Origin: Candidatus Kaiserbacteria bacterium CG10_big_fil_rev_8_21_14_0_10_59_10
GTDB lineage: Bacteria > Patescibacteriota > Minisyncoccia > Phycocordibacterales > UBA2100
DNA length: 35,233 nucleotides
Direction of reading: 5' to 3'
Assembly: GCA_002773285.1 (NCBI GenBank)
Contig: PFBM01000010.1
Span: 1-35,233, forward strand
This document shows, piece after piece, positions 1,698 to 29,334 of the stretch. Both the position numbers and the translations under genes were made by a program. The notes below the pieces were generated by a model. The model was not told the origin of the DNA. It did not search any database and saw only the letters and a list, made by a program, of their open reading frames with translations. Each line of letters starts with the position of its first letter. Position 1 is the stretch's first letter.

Positions 1698-4600
1698 TTA
1701 CTTTTTCACCTTTTGTATCGGGAGCGTGAAAGAGAACGTGGAACCCTTGCCCTTTTTGCTCTCAACCCACAGGCGACCCTGGTGCTGTGCAACGATAGCT
1801 GCAGAAATATAGAGCCCAATACCGAGTCCGGAAAAGTTTTTCCCGCCCTCGTTGCCTACCTGAAAAAGGCGCTCAAATATCTTGCTTTGATGCGTCTTGG
1901 CAATACCTATGCCGTAATCCTGAACGGTCACGCAAACTTCCTTCGGGGTCTTCGAGAGCGTAACGATGATCTTATGTGCCTCCGGAGAATATTTGATCGC
2001 ATTCACGAGCAAGTTGACGAACACCCTACTGATGCTATTTCGGTCCCCTTTTATCTTTGCATCTGTCTTTCCCTTAACGACAATGGTGTGCTGCGGCGAT
2101 AGAAGCCGGCAGTCGTTGACTATCTCCATCGCGAGAGTGTCGAAATCGAATGTTTTCTCGTCAAGCTCGAATTTGTCGTTTTTTATCTTTGAAACATCGA
2201 GGAGGTCGGCCACAAGCCTCGTCAGTTGGTTGATTTGCTGATCCATTCTCGTGAGGTATTCGACAAGCATTTTATCTTCACTTTCCTCAAAACGTTTTTG
2301 AAGTATCTGCACCAGCGTCTTTATCGTCGTCACGGGCGTATTTAGTTCGTGACTCGCCATGCTCATGAAGTTCTCGTTGCGCTGTTGAAGAACTTTTATA
2401 TCGTTGATGTCAATAAGCGTTATGACGGCTCCGTCAATTTTGTTGTCCCACGTCTTATATGGACGCACCCACAGGGTATACCAGCGCCCTTCTTCGTCCT
2501 CCACTTCCTCATGCCGAGGCTGTACGTTCTCGATGACATCGAGGAGCAGATCTTGCAGGTTGGGGAATCGGATCGGGAGCTTAATGTCCGTGATAGACCT
2601 CCCGATGTCGGAAGGGATGATACGAAGCGATTTCTCCGCTATTGGTGTGAGTCGCCTGATACACAGCTGCCTATCCACAATAATGATAGGTACGTTTGCG
2701 GAAGAGAGGACATTATTAAGGTCATTGTTAATTTGACTCAGTTCGGTATTGCGTGTCTGGAGTTCTTCATTGACCGTGACAAGCTCTTCATTTGTTGACT
2801 GAAGTTCTTCCTTGGCGGTCTCCAACTCCTCATTGGTACTCTGCAGCTCTTCGTTGGAAGATACGATCTCTTCGTTGACCGATTGGAACTCTTCACGCGC
2901 GGCCTCTTCCTCTTCAAGAGCAGTCCGCAGATGCTCTTTTGTAATACGTAATTCGCGCTCTAGTTTTTCGACTTGGCGAGCGGCGGGTTTCTTCGCCCCC
3001 CGTGCATTCTCATCCGTTTCCTCTTCTTTCGACGCTAGTGACTCGCCGCGGCGGAACACTATGAGAAAATGCCGCTCGCGCTTATTGCGGCGATTGATAG
3101 GTATCACCTCAATATTCACCTTGCCTGTCTGCCCGTTCTCCACAAGCTCCACGTCACTTCGCAAGATCGTCCTCTCTTTCTTTTTGGCGTCAATGATTGC
3201 CCCTCGAAGCTCCATTATGATTTCTTCGCGAGCCATCTTCAAAAGATGCCAGGTCGCTCTGCCTGCGGGGAAATTGAGATACGGAGTGAGGTCGCCGCGG
3301 AATTGCACTACCTGCAGGGACTCGTCAATAACGACACTCGGAGGAGCAAAGCCCGAGGAAAGAAGAATTCTGTCGATGTCCTTTGATAATTCGCCGTCGA
3401 TGCTGAAATTACTCTGCGTGTCTTGCGAGGACTCTTCAACGTTCTCCTCAGTATGTGCATTGTATGGTTTAACATCAGCATCATCAGAAGGAAGTCTGAA
3501 GTGAGGCCTTCTTGAAGACACTTTCTTGTTATATATCTTGTGCGTTTTATGTTTTGCCTGATACAAATCCGTATATTCGCCAACGCCCTCCGACTTTCCG
3601 AGCATAAGAAACCCGCTTGGCTTGAGCGCGTAATGGAACAGCGGCAGGATGCGCTTTTGCGCGGTTGGCTCTAGATAAATGAGCACATTTCGGCAGGTGA
3701 TGAGATCGATAAGCGAGAAGGGAGGGTCGCGCAAAAGGTCATGCTTGGCGAATACGCACATATTGCGAATTGACTTTGAGATTTGGTAGTGGCCATTCAT
3801 TTTTTTAAAGAAGCGCCGTAACCTCTCCGGCGAGACATCCGAGGCGATGCTTGTCGGATAGATGCCTGCGCGGGCCTTGCCAACATTTATTTCACTCAAG
3901 TCGCTTCCGAATATCTGAAAAGGGATGTTCTTTTTTATTCCTTCAAGAAACTCCACGAGGGATATCGCGACTGAATAGGTTTCCTCCCCGGTCGAACAGC
4001 CGGCAGACCAAATCCGTATTGGCTCATCCTTGGCGCGCCCTTTCACCAATGCCGGAAATAAGTTCCTTTTTAGATACTCAAATGCCTCACGGTCACGGAA
4101 AAACTGGGTGACGCTGAGGAGTAAATCTTGAAAAAGTGCATCAACTTCTGCCGGCGTGCGTTGAAGGTAGGCGATATATTCCGGCAACTCCTCAATTTTC
4201 TGCAAGACCATCCTTCGCAGAATGCGCCGCCTCAGTGTTGGTGGCTTGTACTGAGAAAAATCTACTCCGGTACGAGTCCGCAACATTGTGAATATCTTTT
4301 GCAAAGACCCCTGCTCCTTTTCGTCTACGGACATTGCGGACTCCACAGACGCCTTGCGCACAGAAGAGACATAGGGGTGACGGCTGATCCGGACAAGTTC
4401 TTTGGCAATATCGGCAGGCACGAGTACATGATCGGCTGCGCCCGATTCCTTCGCGCTATGCGGCATGCTCGAGTGTTTCGCGGATCTCTCGTCTTGTGCA
4501 AACGTGATGCCGCCTTCGCCTTTGATCGCCTCGAGACCCAACACGCCGTCGGACGCGTTACCCGAGAGAATAATGCCGACACTTCGATTATTCTGATCAG

Positions 4601-5003
4601 CCGCAAGAGAGCGAAAAAAGGTATCGATGGATACGAGCCTGCCCTCCCCTCCGACGCGAGTAACGAGACGCAATACCCCGCCTTCAATGAACATATTCTT
4701 GCCCGGAGGTATGACGTACAGATGATCTGCCTCGACGCGGGTCCCCTGCTTTGCTTCAGTAACCGACATGTGAGCAACCCGTGCAAGGATCGGGGTCAAC
4801 ATGCTCTTGTGCTGCGGGTCCAGGTGCTGCACGTACACGAACCCCATGCCGGTTTTTTCCGGAAGATTCTCTAGAAGTTCTGTCACTGCCTCGAGTCCTC
4901 CCGCAGATGCACCTATGCCGACAATCGCTCGCGGAGTGATTTTTCTTTTTCTTACGCTCTCACGTTGATATTGAGATTTTTTCTTGATCATTTTCTTCGA
5001 CAT
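1698..5003 (-). CDS. CheB methylesterase - CheR methyltransferase - coiled coil - PAS - histidine kinase fusion
   Basis: GIGASAGGLEAV/YVQHLDPQHKS (CheB), LLLSVTQFFRD...IWSAGCSTGEETYS (CheR), NEELQSTNEELETAKEELQ coiled coil, SHELNTPVTTIK (HisKA), GIGLYISAAIVAQHQG (HATPase). Confidence 0.95.
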   Translation of the reverse strand: MSKKMIKKKSQYQRESVRKRKITPRAIVGIGASAGGLEAVTELLENLPEKTGMGFVYVQHLDPQHKSMLTPILARVAHMSVTEAKQGTRVEADHLYVIPPGKNMFIEGGVLRLVTRVGGEGRLVSIDTFFRSLAADQNNRSVGIILSGNASDGVLGLEAIKGEGGITFAQDERSAKHSSMPHSAKESGAADHVLVPADIAKELVRISRHPYVSSVRKASVESAMSVDEKEQGSLQKIFTMLRTRTGVDFSQYKPPTLRRRILRRMVLQKIEELPEYIAYLQRTPAEVDALFQDLLLSVTQFFRDREAFEYLKRNLFPALVKGRAKDEPIRIWSAGCSTGEETYSVAISLVEFLEGIKKNIPFQIFGSDLSEINVGKARAGIYPTSIASDVSPERLRRFFKKMNGHYQISKSIRNMCVFAKHDLLRDPPFSLIDLITCRNVLIYLEPTAQKRILPLFHYALKPSGFLMLGKSEGVGEYTDLYQAKHKTHKIYNKKVSSRRPHFRLPSDDADVKPYNAHTEENVEESSQDTQSNFSIDGELSKDIDRILLSSGFAPPSVVIDESLQVVQFRGDLTPYLNFPAGRATWHLLKMAREEIIMELRGAIIDAKKKERTILRSDVELVENGQTGKVNIEVIPINRRNKRERHFLIVFRRGESLASKEEETDENARGAKKPAARQVEKLERELRITKEHLRTALEEEEAAREEFQSVNEEIVSSNEELQSTNEELETAKEELQSTNEELVTVNEELQTRNTELSQINNDLNNVLSSANVPIIIVDRQLCIRRLTPIAEKSLRIIPSDIGRSITDIKLPIRFPNLQDLLLDVIENVQPRHEEVEDEEGRWYTLWVRPYKTWDNKIDGAVITLIDINDIKVLQQRNENFMSMASHELNTPVTTIKTLVQILQKRFEESEDKMLVEYLTRMDQQINQLTRLVADLLDVSKIKNDKFELDEKTFDFDTLAMEIVNDCRLLSPQHTIVVKGKTDAKIKGDRNSISRVFVNLLVNAIKYSPEAHKIIVTLSKTPKEVCVTVQDYGIGIAKTHQSKIFERLFQVGNEGGKNFSGLGIGLYISAAIVAQHQGRLWVESKKGKGSTFSFTLPIQKVKK

Positions 5004-5938: not shown

Positions 5939-8854
5939 TCAAAATAGCTTCCCTTTGGCTGTCGCCTCGCTCACCTTTGCTAGTCCACAGATTTCCTCAA
6001 TCGAAGCGTTGTTATCTTTCAAGCTGTAGAAGTGATTTTCTCCAAGTAAGACATATGACCATTCCCGCTCCATTCTTTTCTCCGGCGGTAACATATTGAT
6101 GCGCTTTACCCAGTCCAACGTGGCGAGTTGCTTTTGCCTCACATTCTGCTCGTTCAAATCTTTATCCGCCTTTGTTTCGATGAGATAGATCTTCGCTCCA
6201 GTCTTGATGATGAAATCGGGCGAATAGAGGCTAAGTAGTCCGTCAGTTCTGATGTAAGAAATTGCTGCAAAAGCATGGTAATACTCGTTCACTTTCATTA
6301 TCGCCTCCACGCCCGAATCACCGTCGGCATAAAGCATCAAATTCTTTTCAAATTCACCCTTGTTTGAGGGGTACGACAGTCTCTCATAAATCGTTTTTGT
6401 GATATCGAGAGAAAAGTTCTCGCGCACCCGCAATTCAGCGATCTCCGAGAAAAACCGTTTCTCGACTTTTGCTTCCGTCGGCTTGATGGACTGCTGCATT
6501 TCAAAAATTGCTTTGCCGATTTCTTTCACGATGTGATCGGTCACAAGGCCATTTTTAAGCAATAGAATCTTCCAGTTGTTATCGTCAAACGGATCAAAAT
6601 TCTGTCCGAACAAGCGCGTTCTGATGTACCTGTCCACAGTTCCGACAATTGCGACATTATTAACTTGAAGCGCGGGAAATACCTTGTTTTTCCTCTGGCT
6701 GATGCGGGCAATACGATTCACAACCACCCCAACGATTTTTTGGAGATATTCGTTATAGCTCTGCGACTTGAACAAAGCGGCATCAACGACATATTCGCCG
6801 AAGCGCGTCTTGACCGTCATCTCCTCGGAGATGAATTTCTCTCCATCTTTCGTGAAGAATTTTTTGAGATTTTCGAGCGGATACAGTGTGAATGGCTCCA
6901 GTTTCGCCATATCAATTTCGGTTTCTATCAGTTCCTCATCTGCATCCCGAATCACAATTGGCCAGAACAGGTCGTATTCTTGATAGTTTTGTTTTAGCCC
7001 AACCTTGATGATATCGCCAAGCACTTCTTTACCGCCCTTCGGATCATGCGTGATTTCACCAAGCAGTCCCTCTTTCAAGAGCTCGTCGTAAAATTGGATG
7101 AACGCTGGATGTTCGATGATGGTCAGCAGGTCAAGGTAGTTATTTGGCTCCCGTTTTTCAGCAAGTAATTTCCTGCGATTGTCGGCCTTAATTTCTTCAA
7201 ACTCCGGTTCGCGCCACATGAGCCGCAATCCGCGGCCAATAGTCTGCTCCAAGAGAATGGGCGCGGTTGAGGAGCGTAGTGGCACGATTACGCAGATATT
7301 GTTCACATCGAATCCTTCGCGAAGCATCAAGACCGATACAATGACTTTCGGATGTTCATGTTTGTCCACGTTAAATAGTCGTTGCTTGATTTCTTTCCAT
7401 TCCTCCTCCGGCACCTCGCCTTTGCGATTAGAGTCAATACGCATCACATCCTCTTGCGCAAGACCTTCTCCTTTCAGAAACTCCTCAATGAACGGCGTTA
7501 CCGTCGTATCCTCGCTCATCACAAGCATCTTTGGATGCTTGTTTGATACACCTGATTTGTCTTTCGAAAATTCTGTAAAGTGTTCCTCAAAAATCCGTAG
7601 CTTATTCAGTCCGGCGCGAAGCATCATCTTTTGTCCCTCGGAAAGCCCGACGACCACACCGTTCTCGCGAATGGCGTTATACTCAAGTGGTAAATCAACA
7701 AGCTCTTTCCGCTTATCTATAACGATTGTTTTTACCAACCCGCCGCGTATTGCGGTTTTCAAGTCAAAATCAACGATTGTATGCGGAAAATAATGCTTGA
7801 CTCGATTCTGCCCACTTCCGGTTACATCGTAGGGAGTAGCTGAAAAGTCGATTTGCACAAATTGCGTCCCCTTGTTTTTGGCGATCGTATTGAGACTTTT
7901 CTGCCACTCGACCTCTTTTACCTCGCCGTATGTTTTATTTTCGTGAATGTGATGTGCCTCGTCATTCATCACCATCAAGTCCGGCAAACTCGCCAGATAC
8001 TCGATTTCTTTTCCGCTCAAGTACTGCGCGTCGAGTGAATCAAGGGCATTTCCGCCCGAAGTTCCTGGACGCACAGGAAAAACATCTTTTACCACACCAG
8101 TTGGGTCATCAAGTGGCGCGGCCTCCACTTCGCTTTCCTCCGCGCCCATAAAAAGATGCCAGTTGGCAATTGCAATAAGGCCGTCGCCGGTAACCTTGCT
8201 TCCGATTTCTTGTTTTCGAGCGACTGCGCTTTGGATGAATCCGAATACATCCTCGCGATAACTTGGCGGAACAAATGTGTCGCGAAATTGGTGAATGTCC
8301 GATGTTGTAAAATCTCGTTCTCCCTCGTCGTTTTCCTTGCCGAGATATGCGTCCAAAAGCCGCTCATACACGATGAGCCCGGGCGCGACAAGCAGAAAGT
8401 TTTTCGTATATCGTCCCGATTTCGTTTCCTCATATTTTGCGTTCAGATACTGCCATATCAAAAGCGCGTGCATAACCCATGTCTTGCCGGTGCCGGTTGC
8501 CATCTTTATCGCGTATTTCGGGATTTCGTACTTCGCTTTCCTGAATTCGGCCATGTCAATTTCTGACAAAAGCTCAAATTCAATGTTTTCGTATATGTCC
8601 TTGACGGCCTTCACCCCAAGAACCTCATGCAGATAAATCGTATTCAAAAACGCTTGCCGTTGTCCCTCGTGGAAATTCGCATAGCGCGTCTCTATGTGCG
8701 GCCCTGTAAACCAGAACGTGAGAAGGTCGCGCGTGATGGGCGAACATTTCGCCATCATCTCTCCATTTGCCCACGATTCATTCACCTTGTCCGTGAGCGT
8801 TCGGGCAAGCTTGAGCGGAATATCACGTGTACCGATATTAATGGGGGATGCCAT
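5939..8854 (-). CDS. type III restriction endonuclease Res subunit (helicase/nuclease)
   Basis: KMATGTGKTWVM (Walker A), MVMNDEAHH (motif II), QTIGRGLR (motif VI) and C-terminal SPDFIIKTGAKIYLIETKAD (PD-D/ExK nuclease). Confidence 0.93.
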   Translation of the reverse strand: MASPINIGTRDIPLKLARTLTDKVNESWANGEMMAKCSPITRDLLTFWFTGPHIETRYANFHEGQRQAFLNTIYLHEVLGVKAVKDIYENIEFELLSEIDMAEFRKAKYEIPKYAIKMATGTGKTWVMHALLIWQYLNAKYEETKSGRYTKNFLLVAPGLIVYERLLDAYLGKENDEGERDFTTSDIHQFRDTFVPPSYREDVFGFIQSAVARKQEIGSKVTGDGLIAIANWHLFMGAEESEVEAAPLDDPTGVVKDVFPVRPGTSGGNALDSLDAQYLSGKEIEYLASLPDLMVMNDEAHHIHENKTYGEVKEVEWQKSLNTIAKNKGTQFVQIDFSATPYDVTGSGQNRVKHYFPHTIVDFDLKTAIRGGLVKTIVIDKRKELVDLPLEYNAIRENGVVVGLSEGQKMMLRAGLNKLRIFEEHFTEFSKDKSGVSNKHPKMLVMSEDTTVTPFIEEFLKGEGLAQEDVMRIDSNRKGEVPEEEWKEIKQRLFNVDKHEHPKVIVSVLMLREGFDVNNICVIVPLRSSTAPILLEQTIGRGLRLMWREPEFEEIKADNRRKLLAEKREPNNYLDLLTIIEHPAFIQFYDELLKEGLLGEITHDPKGGKEVLGDIIKVGLKQNYQEYDLFWPIVIRDADEELIETEIDMAKLEPFTLYPLENLKKFFTKDGEKFISEEMTVKTRFGEYVVDAALFKSQSYNEYLQKIVGVVVNRIARISQRKNKVFPALQVNNVAIVGTVDRYIRTRLFGQNFDPFDDNNWKILLLKNGLVTDHIVKEIGKAIFEMQQSIKPTEAKVEKRFFSEIAELRVRENFSLDITKTIYERLSYPSNKGEFEKNLMLYADGDSGVEAIMKVNEYYHAFAAISYIRTDGLLSLYSPDFIIKTGAKIYLIETKADKDLNEQNVRQKQLATLDWVKRINMLPPEKRMEREWSYVLLGENHFYSLKDNNASIEEICGLAKVSEATAKGKLF

Positions 8855-8857
8855 GAT

Positions 8858-9994
8858 TTATGTTAGAAAGATGTTTACATAGTTGCGGTATATGTACGAT
8901 CTATCGTAAGTGCCCTTTTCTTCCTGTGACTCAAGAATGCCGAGTTTAATAAATCTATCAATGACTTTCTGAGCGCCAGCTCTGGTAAAGCCAGTCCATT
9001 CCATCACACGCGCTGTATTTACAATCGGCATACCGAACAAATGCGACAATACCAAAACTCCGCTTTTCGATTCTCGCTTGGCGAGCGCTTGTATTTTCAT
9101 CATATCTGTATCGCGCAACGAGCGTATCTTCCGAGAGATTTCTATAGACTCTTGCGCCGTCTCGATCACACCGTCGAGGAAGAAACGCATCCAGCTCTCA
9201 ACGTCCCCGTTGTGGTAGTCGTCCAATTTTTGGTAATAAACTTTCTGGTGCTTTTTGAAGTATGAAGACAAAAACAGCACCGGCCGCTCTAGGAGTTTGC
9301 GGTGGCACAAGAGGAGGGTGATGAGAAGACGTCCCGTTCTGCCGTTACCGTCGAGAAATGGGTGGATGGTTTCAAAATGCGCGTGCATGATTCCGATATG
9401 TACGAGCGGAAGTACCACCTGCTCTGAATGCAGAAACTTTTCAAAATCATCGAGAGAGCGCTTCATGTCGAGAACCGACGGCGGTACGAAATGCGCGTTG
9501 TCTGGGCGCGTGCCACCAATCCAATTTTGACTTTTGCGAAACTCTCCCGGGTCCGAGAAGTGGCTCGATCGCGCCCCCGTCATGAGCTCCGAGTGTATTT
9601 CTCTTATGAGCCGCAATGAAAGCGGCAAACTATCAAGGCGCTTGAGTCCGTAATTTAGGGCCTTTATATAGTAGAGAATATCGTCGGCATCAGTTTCTTT
9701 TGCGGCAACTCCCGACTCCATTTCAAGAGCGTCGATAATAGTAGCTCGTGTTCCCTCGATTTGCGCCGATGAGGTCGCATCCTTTGCAACGAACATACGC
9801 AAGAAAAAATCAACATCGGGAAGCGCATTTTCAGTCGTGGCACCATCAAGTTTACCTACCAAGCGGCCCGCTTCGTCCACTTTAAGAAGGAGCTCTTGGG
9901 GAATATCGAAAAGGCCTTTGGGCGGAAATGGGTGCAGTACGAAGGCGGAAAAACCCTCTTTTTGTTTTATATTTTTGCCTATTTCAACATTCAT
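8858..9994 (-). CDS. Fic family protein with N-terminal inhibitory helix and C-terminal winged-helix-like region
   Basis: HPFLDGNGRTGR is the Fic motif (HxFx(D/E)GNGRxxR). SSAQIEGT matches the class II inhibitory motif (S/T)xxxE(G/N). Confidence 0.93.
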   Translation of the reverse strand: MNVEIGKNIKQKEGFSAFVLHPFPPKGLFDIPQELLLKVDEAGRLVGKLDGATTENALPDVDFFLRMFVAKDATSSAQIEGTRATIIDALEMESGVAAKETDADDILYYIKALNYGLKRLDSLPLSLRLIREIHSELMTGARSSHFSDPGEFRKSQNWIGGTRPDNAHFVPPSVLDMKRSLDDFEKFLHSEQVVLPLVHIGIMHAHFETIHPFLDGNGRTGRLLITLLLCHRKLLERPVLFLSSYFKKHQKVYYQKLDDYHNGDVESWMRFFLDGVIETAQESIEISRKIRSLRDTDMMKIQALAKRESKSGVLVLSHLFGMPIVNTARVMEWTGFTRAGAQKVIDRFIKLGILESQEEKGTYDRSYIYRNYVNIFLT

Positions 9995-10068
9995 AATTTC
10001 TAGTTTACATTGTTGTATAGGATATATACTATCTTATCACTTAGTATATATTAAGTCAAACATGATTA

Positions 10069-11937
10069 CTATACTTCCTGAATTACCACGCTCTCGAACC
10101 CAAAAACATCGACTGCTTTGACGCACACCTTCCGTTTTCCGTTCTTTGGCACCAAAAGCTCGGTTTGATAGACAACATGCAAAGGGTCGCGATCGTTCTC
10201 GGTATTGCCGCGATAATCTTGCCACTTGCTGCGGAAAGTTACGCCATCATAGTCCGGGTCAATGCTCCAGTATTCAATAAGCGCGAGCGGGTCTTTGGCA
10301 ATCACTTCGGAAAGCTTTTCCTTATCCTTATCGTCAAGCGGGATGTTGTCGGGAGAAAGAAGAACATAGGTATCAAGTGCAACTTTTATGCGCTCTTTGC
10401 CATCGCCCGCATCTTCTGTCTCTATGGGCTTGATGGAGAGATACTGCAAGCTAGAGAAGCGCACTTTACCGCTCTCAACGAGTTTCTTGTAGCTCGCCTT
10501 GGTCTTGAGCTTGTCCAAGAGATCGGGCGGGATAACGAGCACTTCGAGTTTTGAATCATCGAGCGACTGAATCGCTTCAGTGATGTCGTAGGTAAAGTTC
10601 CAGCCGAGCACGACGACTTTCTGCCAGCCGCCCATGAATGTGTTGCGAAGCTCCTGCGCGCGCTTCAGTGTCGCAAGGCCGGTCATTTTGTTCGGCGAGT
10701 CCACCAAGACGAGCGTCTTGTTTTCCTTGATATAGCCCAAATTGCGTTGATGCTGTTCGGCATCGGCAAACGGAATGGCGCCGTAGAGTTGTAAGACAAC
10801 CTGCGACAAGTCGCCAACGCGGCGGTACATTTTTGAGCCCGCGAATACTTCTTTTTGATAATCACCGACGGCTTGGTACAAAAATGGCTTCGCGTTTTGA
10901 TCTATGAGCCGCTTGCGCGTGATAAGACAAGCGGGTTTGCCGAGGTCCGACATAATCCACTTACGCCCGAGTTTCTCTGCAACTGCGCCCGTCGTTCCGG
11001 AACCCGCAAAACAATCAAAAACTATGTCTCCTATGTTAGTTGATGCATCTATAATCCGCTCGAGAAGTGCTTCAGGTTTCTGCGTGCCGTAATCAACAAT
11101 CTCCGAATGTATTCTCCCAACTGGGGTAATATCACTCCACCAGTCTTCGGGGATTTTTCCGGCGGCATCCAATGTAAATTCAGACTTGAAAATTCCACTT
11201 GTTTTTCCAGTCTCTAGCTTTTTATACGGGATACGAATTTTGTCTCCATTGAAGATTTGACTGCCTTCCTTTTTTGCATACCAAAAAATTGTGTCGTGTT
11301 TTCGTGGAAAATATCCTTTTGTATTTGACGGCCCAGTGTAGGCCCAAATGATTTCATTTATCAAATTATCCTTTCCGAAAATCTCATCCAGCAAAATCTT
11401 TACATAATGCCCAACATGCCAGTCAATATGCACATAAATTGAACCTTTGTCTGAAAGAAGCTCACGCATCAGTGCGAGTCGGGGATAGAGCATTTTGAGA
11501 TACGAAACTGTACCGTCTTTCCATGTATCGGCGTAGGCAAACTGCTCGATAACAGTTGGTTTCTGTTGCAAATCCGCACCAGGGAGCGTTACCTTCGTAC
11601 GATAGTCGGCCTTTGAGTCAAACGGTGGGTCAATGTAAATCAAATCCACCCTTCCGCGCATGGACGGCAATCCCGTCTCCGGATCACCCGCAAGAAGCGC
11701 TTGTATCGCAAAAAGATTGTCGCCGTAGATGAGGCGGTTCATCCACTCTTTCTCATTAACCTCCGGAATCCTCCCCTCAAACATGCCGCTTTGAGCGACA
11801 TCTTTAGCAGGGAGCACCAGCTCATTCGTCTGGAGACCGAGCTTGTTCGCGCCCGAAAGCCGCTCAAGTATTTCCTCTACCTCCTTCCGCCCCTCGGCAA
11901 CAATCTTCGGTAATTCTTCAATAAGTGATTTTTTCAT
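10069..11937 (-). CDS. type III DNA-methyltransferase Mod subunit (adenine-specific)
   Basis: VDLIYIDPPFDSKADY (DPPY/F motif IV) and IVFDCFAGSGTTGAVAEKLGR (FxGxG motif I). Start chosen at MKKSLIEELPK; other in-frame starts lie up to 12018. Confidence 0.92.
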   Translation of the reverse strand: MKKSLIEELPKIVAEGRKEVEEILERLSGANKLGLQTNELVLPAKDVAQSGMFEGRIPEVNEKEWMNRLIYGDNLFAIQALLAGDPETGLPSMRGRVDLIYIDPPFDSKADYRTKVTLPGADLQQKPTVIEQFAYADTWKDGTVSYLKMLYPRLALMRELLSDKGSIYVHIDWHVGHYVKILLDEIFGKDNLINEIIWAYTGPSNTKGYFPRKHDTIFWYAKKEGSQIFNGDKIRIPYKKLETGKTSGIFKSEFTLDAAGKIPEDWWSDITPVGRIHSEIVDYGTQKPEALLERIIDASTNIGDIVFDCFAGSGTTGAVAEKLGRKWIMSDLGKPACLITRKRLIDQNAKPFLYQAVGDYQKEVFAGSKMYRRVGDLSQVVLQLYGAIPFADAEQHQRNLGYIKENKTLVLVDSPNKMTGLATLKRAQELRNTFMGGWQKVVVLGWNFTYDITEAIQSLDDSKLEVLVIPPDLLDKLKTKASYKKLVESGKVRFSSLQYLSIKPIETEDAGDGKERIKVALDTYVLLSPDNIPLDDKDKEKLSEVIAKDPLALIEYWSIDPDYDGVTFRSKWQDYRGNTENDRDPLHVVYQTELLVPKNGKRKVCVKAVDVFGFESVVIQEV

Positions 11938-12106
11938 GGATTTACTCTTCATTTTACCCCAGTTATAAGTGATACAAAAAAAATTGACCCGACCGAGCCC
12001 CGTTTTCCGCTCCTCCATTCTTTTCTTTTTTGGCGGGGGGATTCTTTTTCAAAATTGCATGGGCGGAAACGGCGAGGGCGAGAAAGCGCGGGGGGCTTTC
12101 GCAAGT

Positions 12107-28014: not shown

Positions 28015-28034
28015 CGTAGCGGCGTGAGAGAAAA

Positions 28035-28060
28035 GAAAACAGCCCTTCGGGGCTGTTTTC
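28035..28060. terminator. bidirectional intrinsic terminator
   Basis: GAAAACAGCCCTTCGGGGCTGTTTTC. Minus strand has TTTTCTTTT after the stem, downstream of tRNA-Asp; it also follows the + strand ORF ending at 28014. Confidence 0.8.
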
Positions 28061-28084
28061 CTTTGCACCTTTCTCACGATACTG

Positions 28085-28381
28085 CGCGGCCGACGGGACT
28101 TGAACCCGCAACCTCCCGCGTGCATGCTCTCCACTGCTTTCGCAATGGCATGGACTATATCTTCACCTTAGATATGTACCCGTAGGTGCTCTGGTATCTA
28201 GTCTCTACGGCGCTCCCACTGAAATGGACTCATCGTCCATCTCTAGGGTTCCCACGGTGTTCGCATATTTTCTTCCGAAAACGTAGCCTTCACCGTTATC
28301 CCAGAGAGTTTCAATCTGACTTTCGAACAGAAAGCTGCACGTCTACAGGCGGGTGCTCGAACCAAATTGAGCTACGGCCGC
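28085..28381 (-). tRNA. tRNA-Asp(GTC) interrupted by a group I intron (exons 28345-28381 and 28085-28122)
   Basis: Joined exons read GCGGCCGTAGCTCAATTTGGTTCGAGCACCCGCCTGT|CACGCGGGAGGTTGCGGGTTCAAGTCCCGTCGGCCGC(G): full cloverleaf, anticodon loop CTGTCAC, 5-nt variable loop. Confidence 0.92.
28123..28344 (-). ncRNA. group I self-splicing intron (222 nt) in tRNA-Asp, between anticodon positions 35 and 36
   Basis: Core signatures GAGACTAGA and AAGATATAGTCC form P7. 5' exon ends in U; P1 can form by CUGU pairing with intron GCAG with the U-G wobble at the splice site; intron ends in G. Confidence 0.93.
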
Positions 28382-29065
28382 ATTTGGATACAACGTTCTT
28401 ATTGCCTTGCTAAATAAGCTGTATTTGCGCGGCAAATGAAGACTCGCTGCTGATGTAGTATCATATATGAAATGATAAAGTGCAAGGCTGTCATGATGGC
28501 TGAGAACCAGATTATAACCTCGATTACGATGCTTGGACCTTACAACCCCTTTCTGCACCCCATGGGAGAGCAGTATTGCATGCAGGTCCTCTAAACACTC
28601 TTTTGATCCTGACGTGAACTGCGAACTGAAAGACCATTTCATACGCCCCCGATCCTTTGCCCAATGTTTACGAAAATATATATTCCCGTCCCCGTCAAAA
28701 TATCCTCGCACAAAATCAGCAACAAAGGGCCTCGGTATATTCAGGAAACGAAGCTTCTTGCTCTTATTTTGTATATATCCAAGGGCAATCAGGTCTTGGA
28801 ACATTTTCTTACTCCCTAACTGAAGGCGGTACACATTCCGCTCAGGCGGTTTTCTGTAACGAATAGAAATCTTGTGCTCGGAAGACAGCGTACGCCGTAC
28901 AGAGTCAATAAGGCATCTATCGGTACTGCAAAACTCAATGAAGTGAGCACCGCGCTTGTTTTTAATCATCGAACCATCCGCAGCAAAGTAACCAAGCACA
29001 TAGGCCATTTCGGGCGACCATCGTTCGAAGAAATCGTGGTTCGCCGCACGATACATCGGCGACAT
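28343..29065 (-). CDS. LAGLIDADG homing endonuclease (two motifs) running into the tRNA-Asp 5' exon
   Basis: MAYVLGYFAADGSM and VADFVRGYFDGDGNIY are the two LAGLIDADG helices. The last 12 residues AAVAQFGSSTRL are encoded by the tRNA 5' exon and the stop TAG spans 28345-28343. Confidence 0.93.
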   Translation of the reverse strand: MSPMYRAANHDFFERWSPEMAYVLGYFAADGSMIKNKRGAHFIEFCSTDRCLIDSVRRTLSSEHKISIRYRKPPERNVYRLQLGSKKMFQDLIALGYIQNKSKKLRFLNIPRPFVADFVRGYFDGDGNIYFRKHWAKDRGRMKWSFSSQFTSGSKECLEDLHAILLSHGVQKGVVRSKHRNRGYNLVLSHHDSLALYHFIYDTTSAASLHLPRKYSLFSKAIRTLYPNAAVAQFGSSTRL

Positions 29066-29117
29066 GCCTTTATTGTACCGTGACAGGAAATATACCTAAC
29101 CATCGCTGTGGAAAATT

Positions 29118-29194
29118 TGGTGCCGGCGCCAGGACTTGCACCTGGGACCTTGGGTTTATGAGTCCCATGCTCTAACTACCTGAGCTACGCCGGC
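29118..29194 (-). tRNA. tRNA-Met(CAT), elongator-like, CCA encoded
   Basis: GCCGGCG...CGCCGGC acceptor with A+CCA, CTCATAA anticodon loop. A CAT anticodon could also be tRNA-Ile2. Confidence 0.88.
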
Positions 29195-29334
29195 GCATGG
29201 CAAGAATACCAATTTTCACCTCACTTCTCAATTTTCCCATCGCGCCTCTCTCAACACACGCCGACTGAGTCATGCGCGCTTGCCGCGCTCTCGCGGCCGA
29301 ACGCGGCATGAGCGTACTGACGAAAAGGGCGGGA

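Follow-up and report, generated by a model that had tools for sequence, protein, structure and literature searches.

Why does a LAGLIDADG reading frame in a Candidatus Kaiserbacteria genome run on into the neighbouring tRNA-Asp gene and end exactly where a group I intron begins? An earlier note on this DNA had described a two-motif LAGLIDADG ORF that lies outside the intron, crosses the tRNA-Asp 5' exon and ends at a U|AG on the 5' splice site, and we find this geometry to be right, with the coordinates, Pfam and ARAGORN in agreement. Mapping confirmed that the final ORF codons are tRNA nucleotides (Table 1) and that the TAG is made of the exon U (nt 37, standard position 35) and the intron AG. 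Joining the exons would open 67 further codons, as counted from the sequence, and the intron, to which ARAGORN gives the same length as the note did, has no ORF. From this geometry a functional switch had been proposed, in which the stop at the splice junction couples nuclease translation to tRNA splicing. Is the stop such a switch, or is its location incidental?

Organization of the locus

On the minus strand of the window, by which we mean the whole 35,233-nt stretch of DNA analyzed here, the order is tRNA-Met, a mimic of the presumed nuclease target, a -10-like TACAAT, the LAGLIDADG ORF, the tRNA-Asp 5' exon, the group I intron, the 3' exon and a hairpin, the last of which was missed by a terminator scan and revealed by folding. 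The complete tRNA-Asp(GUC) gene with its intron occupies 28084-28381 (L033; ARAGORN, introns allowed). No second tRNA-Asp was found among the tRNA matches of the source genome (completeness 98.95%), so tRNA-Asp appears to be single-copy and removal of the intron would be required in the cell.

Table 1. Features of the tRNA-Met/tRNA-Asp locus, in window coordinates
Feature	Position	Strand	Basis or remark
Two-motif (monomeric type) LAGLIDADG endonuclease ORF, 240 aa	28343..29065	-	last 12 codons = tRNA-Asp nt 1-36
First LAGLIDADG motif, YVLGYFAADG	28973..29002	-	D30 invariant, 27 aligned members
Second LAGLIDADG motif, FVRGYFDGDG	28685..28714	-	D124 and D126 invariant, 27 aligned members
Target mimic TGGTTAG-N8-CCTGTCACG, 24 bp, putative operator	29079..29102	-	16/16 specified positions, 0/500 shuffles
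-10-like TACAAT, directly 3' of mimic	29072..29077	-	TATAAT-like in many homologues
tRNA-Asp(GUC) 5' exon; D-loop TTGGTTCG, not canonical TGGTTAG	28345..28381	-	ARAGORN
Group I intron, 222 nt, without own ORF, between anticodon positions 35/36	28123..28344	-	Rfam, ARAGORN
tRNA-Asp 3' exon	28084..28122	-	ARAGORN
Stop codon U|AG spanning 5' splice site	28343..28345	-	sequence
Hairpin with U-rich end just past tRNA, probable terminator	28031..28064	-	folding: -21.5 kcal/mol, z=-5.3
tRNA-Met(CAU), upstream neighbour	29118..29194	-	
Sigma-70-like promoter upstream of tRNA-Met, weak evidence	29203..29231	-	2 found vs 1.2 expected

The ORF and tRNA-Asp, which have no gap between them, are probably carried on a shared transcript. 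On condition of such co-transcription we accept the proposal that translation and RNA maturation compete for one RNA, since the ORF overlaps the tRNA. Because the probable terminator precedes the next in-frame stop, the spliced and terminated RNA would, by sequence arithmetic, contain no in-frame stop, and an RNase P cut at the tRNA 5' end would be expected to remove the ORF stop wherever that stop lies within the tRNA. A tmRNA is present. At the other end of the ORF the ATG lies 7 nt beyond the TACAAT, a spacing that suggests the mRNA may be nearly leaderless.

Two further regions of the window, both on the minus strand and read by eye, are 5939-12018, where a Fic-like protein is flanked by a helicase and a DNA methylase that form a type III-like restriction pair, and 1698-5003, a 1101-aa CheB-CheR-PAS-histidine kinase fusion with an adjoining response regulator, which is unusual for so small a genome.

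The LAGLIDADG protein

LAGLIDADG homing endonucleases make site-specific double-strand breaks with 4-nt 3' overhangs. Some proteins of this type have other roles: I-AniI is an example that acts as a maturase, and WhiA is a regulator derived from LAGLIDADG. The window protein matches Pfam LAGLIDADG_3 in two stretches (E=8e-16) and has two motifs with acidic residues, as in a two-motif LAGLIDADG monomer; the motif aspartates are invariant across the aligned members (Table 1). Its relatives in the PDB by sequence are 2dch, I-AniI, I-HjeMI and I-DmoI, and NCBIfam yields weak matches alone, to intein-containing families and to WhiA. The ORF is not contained in the intron, of which it reaches base 2 and no further, and so differs from an intron-encoded endonuclease gene. 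It resembles instead the gene of a free-standing endonuclease, which has its own place beside its target, here a putative one, and for which empty alleles exist.

An insertion between two tRNA genes

A first set of homologues, obtained by a search of 193 related genomes, shows 40-57% identity, and nearly all of its members adjoin tRNA-Asp; about 40 more distant homologues adjoin tRNA-Leu(GAG), -Leu(CAG), -Leu(UAG), -Cys or -Lys. The source genome itself holds a second family member (G000 contig C5:3529-4161, L075), which directly precedes tRNA-Leu(GAG) and has a Leu mimic of its own at its promoter. In other classes of the phylum the members adjoin tRNA-Asp, -Cys, -Leu-GAG and -Leu-UAA, and a few are near tRNA-Phe or have no tRNA. 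A named set, which overlaps the earlier sets, consists of the best 80 matches in a collection with one genome per species and was retrieved with an alignment as the query; the single window protein as query gave no match in that genome contig collection, whereas the alignment did. At all 77 named-set loci with a resolvable flank the ORF is 5' of the tRNA, which is tRNA-Asp at 75 of these. Viral LAGLIDADG relatives at a similar distance showed tRNA linkage in 1 of 41 cases.

The position of the ORF is explained by comparison with loci from which it is missing. Where there is no full ORF, the nearest upstream tRNA of tRNA-Asp is tRNA-Met(+) in 68/98 loci, commonly about 50 nt away, whereas the gap between tRNA-Met and tRNA-Asp is 736-1104 nt in 22 of the 23 loci that have the ORF and this same upstream neighbour, indicating that the ORF is an insertion between two tRNA genes. 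The ORF tree mostly follows the clades, apart from one other family (G143) that groups with the own-genus clade, and on this tree recent homing between distant hosts is no more than a possibility.

Among the more distant sequences, a viral LAGLIDADG relative on a very large phage-like contig of 427 kb (L310, IMGVR_UViG_3300028920_000001) has tRNA-Trp, part of a tRNA cluster, 27 nt downstream. Two distant homologues (L254 and L258) have no tRNA nearby; one of them lies in a frame open for more than 1000 codons, and they are possibly inteins.

Position of the stop codon

Comparison of related tRNA-Asp loci revealed intronless alleles with the ORF 5' of the tRNA, and the splice-site stop did not hold up as a principle: it occurs in 1/24 Asp-linked homologues, and in the other six with an intron the ORF ends ahead of that intron. 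All 24 have complete context, and their stops fall inside tRNA-Asp in 23 and after it in one, an ORF (G005) that continues past the whole tRNA. TAG at tRNA nt 8-10 (U8-A9-G10) is the stop in 14/24, TAG at nt 13-15 in 6/24 and a D-loop codon in 2/24; a stop at nt 37 is found in the window alone. The suggestion that a defined C-terminus depends on the intron also failed, as 17/24 Asp-linked homologues are at an intronless tRNA-Asp. With most homologues at an intronless tRNA or stopping before the intron, the C-terminus in this family is independent of the intron.

An ORF that ends before the tRNA, which the earlier note had named as contrary to its model, was seen in none of the 24 Asp-linked homologues but in 20 of the best 80 one-genome-per-species loci, where a further 54 stop inside the tRNA, 3 stop beyond it and 3 meet contig ends. 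A stop inside the tRNA is therefore common and not obligatory, and with 20 loci stopping before and 3 beyond we dropped the idea of an obligatory one. Selection on the C-terminal tail of the ORF was also considered and dropped, since frame and tail differ among homologues.

The U|AG of the window follows automatically from two circumstances, namely that the 5' exon is open in this one of its three frames and that 10 of the 13 homologous introns begin with AG. Overall, ORF and tRNA do overlap and this arrangement is conserved; that the stop falls on a splice junction is incidental.

tRNA genes are altered where the ORF is present

Canonical tRNA-Asp DNA reads TGGTTAGAGCACCCGCCTGTCACG, and we defined the canonical site as TGGTTAG-N8-CYTGTCACG, a rule formed on the first set after inspection. 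The tRNA-Asp gene is non-canonical or split in 23/24 genomes with a full ORF vs 29/91 without (Fisher p=6e-9), and within the own genus in 9/10 vs 5/22 (p=6e-4); in these and the following counts of ORF against tRNA the genomes are not phylogenetically independent. Because the rule was derived from the first set, it was applied to held-out genomes that had not been used in forming it, which answers the post-hoc definition in part. Here a canonical intronless tRNA-Asp was found in 4/38 genomes with the ORF vs 117/214 without (p=2e-7). A canonical tRNA-Leu(GAG) likewise occurs in 0/22 genomes with the ORF vs 29/74 without (p=1e-4). In the named genomes, which overlap the earlier sets, 47 tRNA genes are altered, 22 contain an intron and 6 are canonical, so that 69/75 are non-canonical or split.

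The alterations are of several kinds (an extra spacer base, GGTTCG or GGTTCA, a short D-loop, an archaeal-like GTGGTGTAGCCTGGTTAACAC arm, TAGTTAG and TGGCTAG), and placed on the ORF tree they amount to 14 changes. Decayed ORF remnants adjoin altered or intron-bearing tRNA genes in 4/5 cases. Exceptions, in which the ORF accompanies a canonical intronless tRNA, are G038, the held-out genomes G486, G522, G581 and G586, and 6/75 named loci; G586 keeps both half-sites and has AGTACCCG at the centre in place of the usual AGCACCCG. Within the ORF-bearing genomes the tRNA is recoded in 2/7 that carry the intron vs 16/17 that are intronless (p=0.003), indicating that the intron replaces recoding.

The archaeal-like D-arm of tRNA-Asp (GTGGTGTAGCCTGGTTAACAC) recurs in scattered families, whether or not the ORF is present (L039, L040, L044, L048, L053, L059, L108, L143 and others), and G165 has an archaeal-like tRNA-Asp together with a canonical copy.

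The group I intron

A covariance-model search with Rfam Intron_gpI (RF00028) matched the full model at 28131-28356 with E=7e-8, which bears out the assignment to group I as regards extent and significance, although the score of 38.1 bits is below the gathering score of 50. Homologous introns score up to 50.8 and 82.2 bits, and the window intron aligns with 12 of them at the same tRNA position. Its 5' splice site is preceded by U, its last base is G and its core is conserved, with covariation: two-sided changes occur in 26 of the 45 pairs of the consensus fold. The intron interrupts the CCTGTCACG half of the putative target, a 24-bp site that would span the insertion point about 8 bp from the site centre. 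Introns without the ORF (G117, G083, G114, G092 and G170) and ORFs without the intron both occur, indicating two separate elements that meet in one target.

Group I introns are also seen in relatives' tRNA-Leu(CAA) and tRNA-Met genes as read by ARAGORN (L055, L058, L042, L048; 42.7-69.5 bits), and a weak match (22.9 bits) at G000 contig C5:53029-53201 (L002, L077), on a 23S rRNA gene read by cmscan, suggests an rRNA intron. The intron-containing tRNA-Arg (L040, L042) and tRNA-His (L054) genes called by ARAGORN gave no group I match.

A mimic of the putative target at the promoter

Upstream of the ORF, TGGTTAG-N8-CCTGTCACG repeats the D-loop-to-anticodon-loop segment of the tRNA-Asp gene at the same spacing; the window mimic agrees at 16/16 specified positions, which was equalled by 0/500 shuffles. 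Neither this mimic nor the correlation of the ORF with altered or split tRNA genes had been noticed by the earlier reader. In the wider family the mimic beats shuffles (p<=0.01) in 21/28 Asp, 19/23 Leu-GAG, 6/8 Cys and 3/4 Leu-CAG members. Beside tRNA-Leu(GAG) the mimic is TGGTANACGC-N6-CTTGAG, beside tRNA-Leu(CAG) it ends in CTTCAG and beside tRNA-Leu(UAG) in NTAG, so that the anticodon in the putative Leu operator tracks the neighbouring tRNA isoacceptor. For Leu-UAG the probe gave a weak result (2/6), yet the TAG anticodon is visible in most. The Leu mimic has one spacer base more than the commonest tRNA form, and the Cys mimic (GTGGTAA-N10-TGCAAA) is in inverted orientation. With a strict probe on the named Asp loci the mimic was significant in 30/74, suggesting that it has diverged or is absent in many.

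In most members the mimic abuts a TATAAT-like -10, and on sequence alone it has the features of an I-TevI-type operator, a target-like site overlapping the promoter. Both half-sites are conserved, but the N8 centre of the mimic is AT-rich and that of the tRNA is GC-rich, a difference that would be expected if the mimic were bound without being cut.

Discussion

We consider the ORF, with a probability of roughly 0.75, to be the gene of a free-standing and probably self-repressing endonuclease that is directed at tRNA-Asp genes and linked to an immune allele of the tRNA. The comparisons show the insertion site, the tRNA linkage, the mimic and its anticodon matching, the correlation with altered tRNA and the variable stop. 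The activities that we infer are binding, cleavage, repression and homing by co-conversion. In the proposed course of events a LAGLIDADG gene was inserted between tRNA-Met and tRNA-Asp, and its product would recognize about 24 bp of the tRNA-Asp gene from D-loop to anticodon loop and break that gene in genomes with the canonical sequence. Repair from the donor would copy in the ORF and the adjoining tRNA allele. The donor allele would be immune either by a recoded D-loop, the anticodon half being unable to change, or by an intron that splits the anticodon half, and both changes are present in the window allele. Bound to the AT-rich promoter mimic without cutting, the enzyme would probably repress its own gene. 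The ORF has no stop of its own and takes a stop triplet from the tRNA: for most Asp members this is the TAG at nt 8-10, and in the window it is U|AG.

Some of these observations could be read differently. A domesticated WhiA-like regulator that occupies both the promoter mimic and the tRNA gene but cuts neither, and so adjusts the supply of tRNA-Asp, would suit the operator-like mimic, the weak similarity to WhiA and the probable co-transcription of two genes with no gap. We regard it as unlikely, since a protein that does not cut gives no reason for loss of the site, yet in genomes with the ORF the site is lost or split; the patchy presence, the decayed remnants beside altered tRNAs and the conserved motif aspartates also fit a selfish nuclease better. 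The mimic might instead be the leftover of an older tRNA-Asp copy from insertion of the ORF, which would suit the Asp and Leu members, where it precedes the ORF in direct orientation. Such an origin is very unlikely given that the Cys mimic is inverted, that no acceptor-stem remnant was seen before the mimic on reading the upstream sequences, and that the half-sites alone are conserved, with a different centre and a -10 alongside in most members.

The switch model of the earlier note, in turn, appears highly improbable. It draws on an exact geometry, and with the sole tRNA-Asp found in a 99%-complete genome splicing must occur, but a stop that arises automatically in this frame beside introns mostly starting with AG, and that has 1/24 Asp-linked homologues to its credit against 6 other intron-bearing ones stopping before the intron and 17 intronless, does not suggest a conserved device. 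Scarcely credible to us is a maturase for the tRNA-Asp intron that is not, or is no longer, an endonuclease: most homologues are beside intronless tRNA genes, introns persist in five genomes without the ORF and the aspartates of both motifs are conserved, against which stands the precedent of LAGLIDADG maturases such as I-AniI, itself among the PDB matches.

Within the free-standing endonuclease reading we suggest, tentatively and with less than even confidence, that the locus could be a natural cleave-and-rescue element, in which the nuclease would eliminate a tRNA gene that is both essential and single-copy while carrying along a functional version of that gene, recoded or intron-split, and in which RNase P maturation would create a non-stop nuclease mRNA as an off-switch. 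It would then be a natural counterpart to synthetic cleave-and-rescue drives. If the endonuclease reading is true, a nuclease family across the Patescibacteria homes into tRNA genes and moulds their sequence. Immunity would then have left its mark in the unusual D-loops, in the anticodon-loop introns and perhaps in the archaeal-like tRNA-Asp, and part of the tRNA introns in this radiation would be explained. The family would also supply LAGLIDADG enzymes useful in specificity studies, with targets and operators that are legible in the genome sequence and that differ in a single base of the anticodon.

Comparison with known systems

Each single principle has precedent in phages or organelles. 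In the literature searched, which covered few subscription papers or preprints, we found no description of the combination of tRNA homing sites throughout a phylum, isoacceptor-matched mimics, a recoded tRNA antidote and a stop borrowed from the tRNA. In phage T4 SegB lies between tRNA genes (PMC2988022), and like the free-standing SegB, SegF, SegG and MobE the window family would place the nuclease gene beside its target, with a resistant donor and co-conversion of the flank expected. Unlike these phage enzymes, which are GIY-YIG or HNH, the family is LAGLIDADG and resides on bacterial chromosomes, its putative target is inside the tRNA coding sequence and no more than about 60 bp from the ORF, and the reading frame itself extends into the tRNA, which supplies its stop. 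LAGLIDADG enzymes of the same host radiation, I-ShaI and I-KazI, are known from rRNA introns of the CPR, with tRNA unmentioned in the main text of that report (PMC11270868); they lie within the rRNA insertions, and such precedents with the ORF inside an intron differ from the window ORF, which is upstream of the tRNA.

The I-TevI operator resembles the homing site, overlaps the promoter and is bound without efficient cutting (PMC2988022). A target-like site over the nuclease promoter is shared with the operators of I-TevI, I-TevII and I-TevIII; what differs is that the putative operator here is family-wide and its anticodon follows the tRNA isoacceptor. Collaborative and intronless homing are also known (PMC3984707); in the collaborative kind, as at cyanophage psbA, a free-standing nuclease and an ORF-less intron converge on one site. 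The window would resemble it in having an ORF-less group I intron that splits the putative nuclease target from within, and would depart from it in that intron and recoding are alternative protections of the same tRNA.
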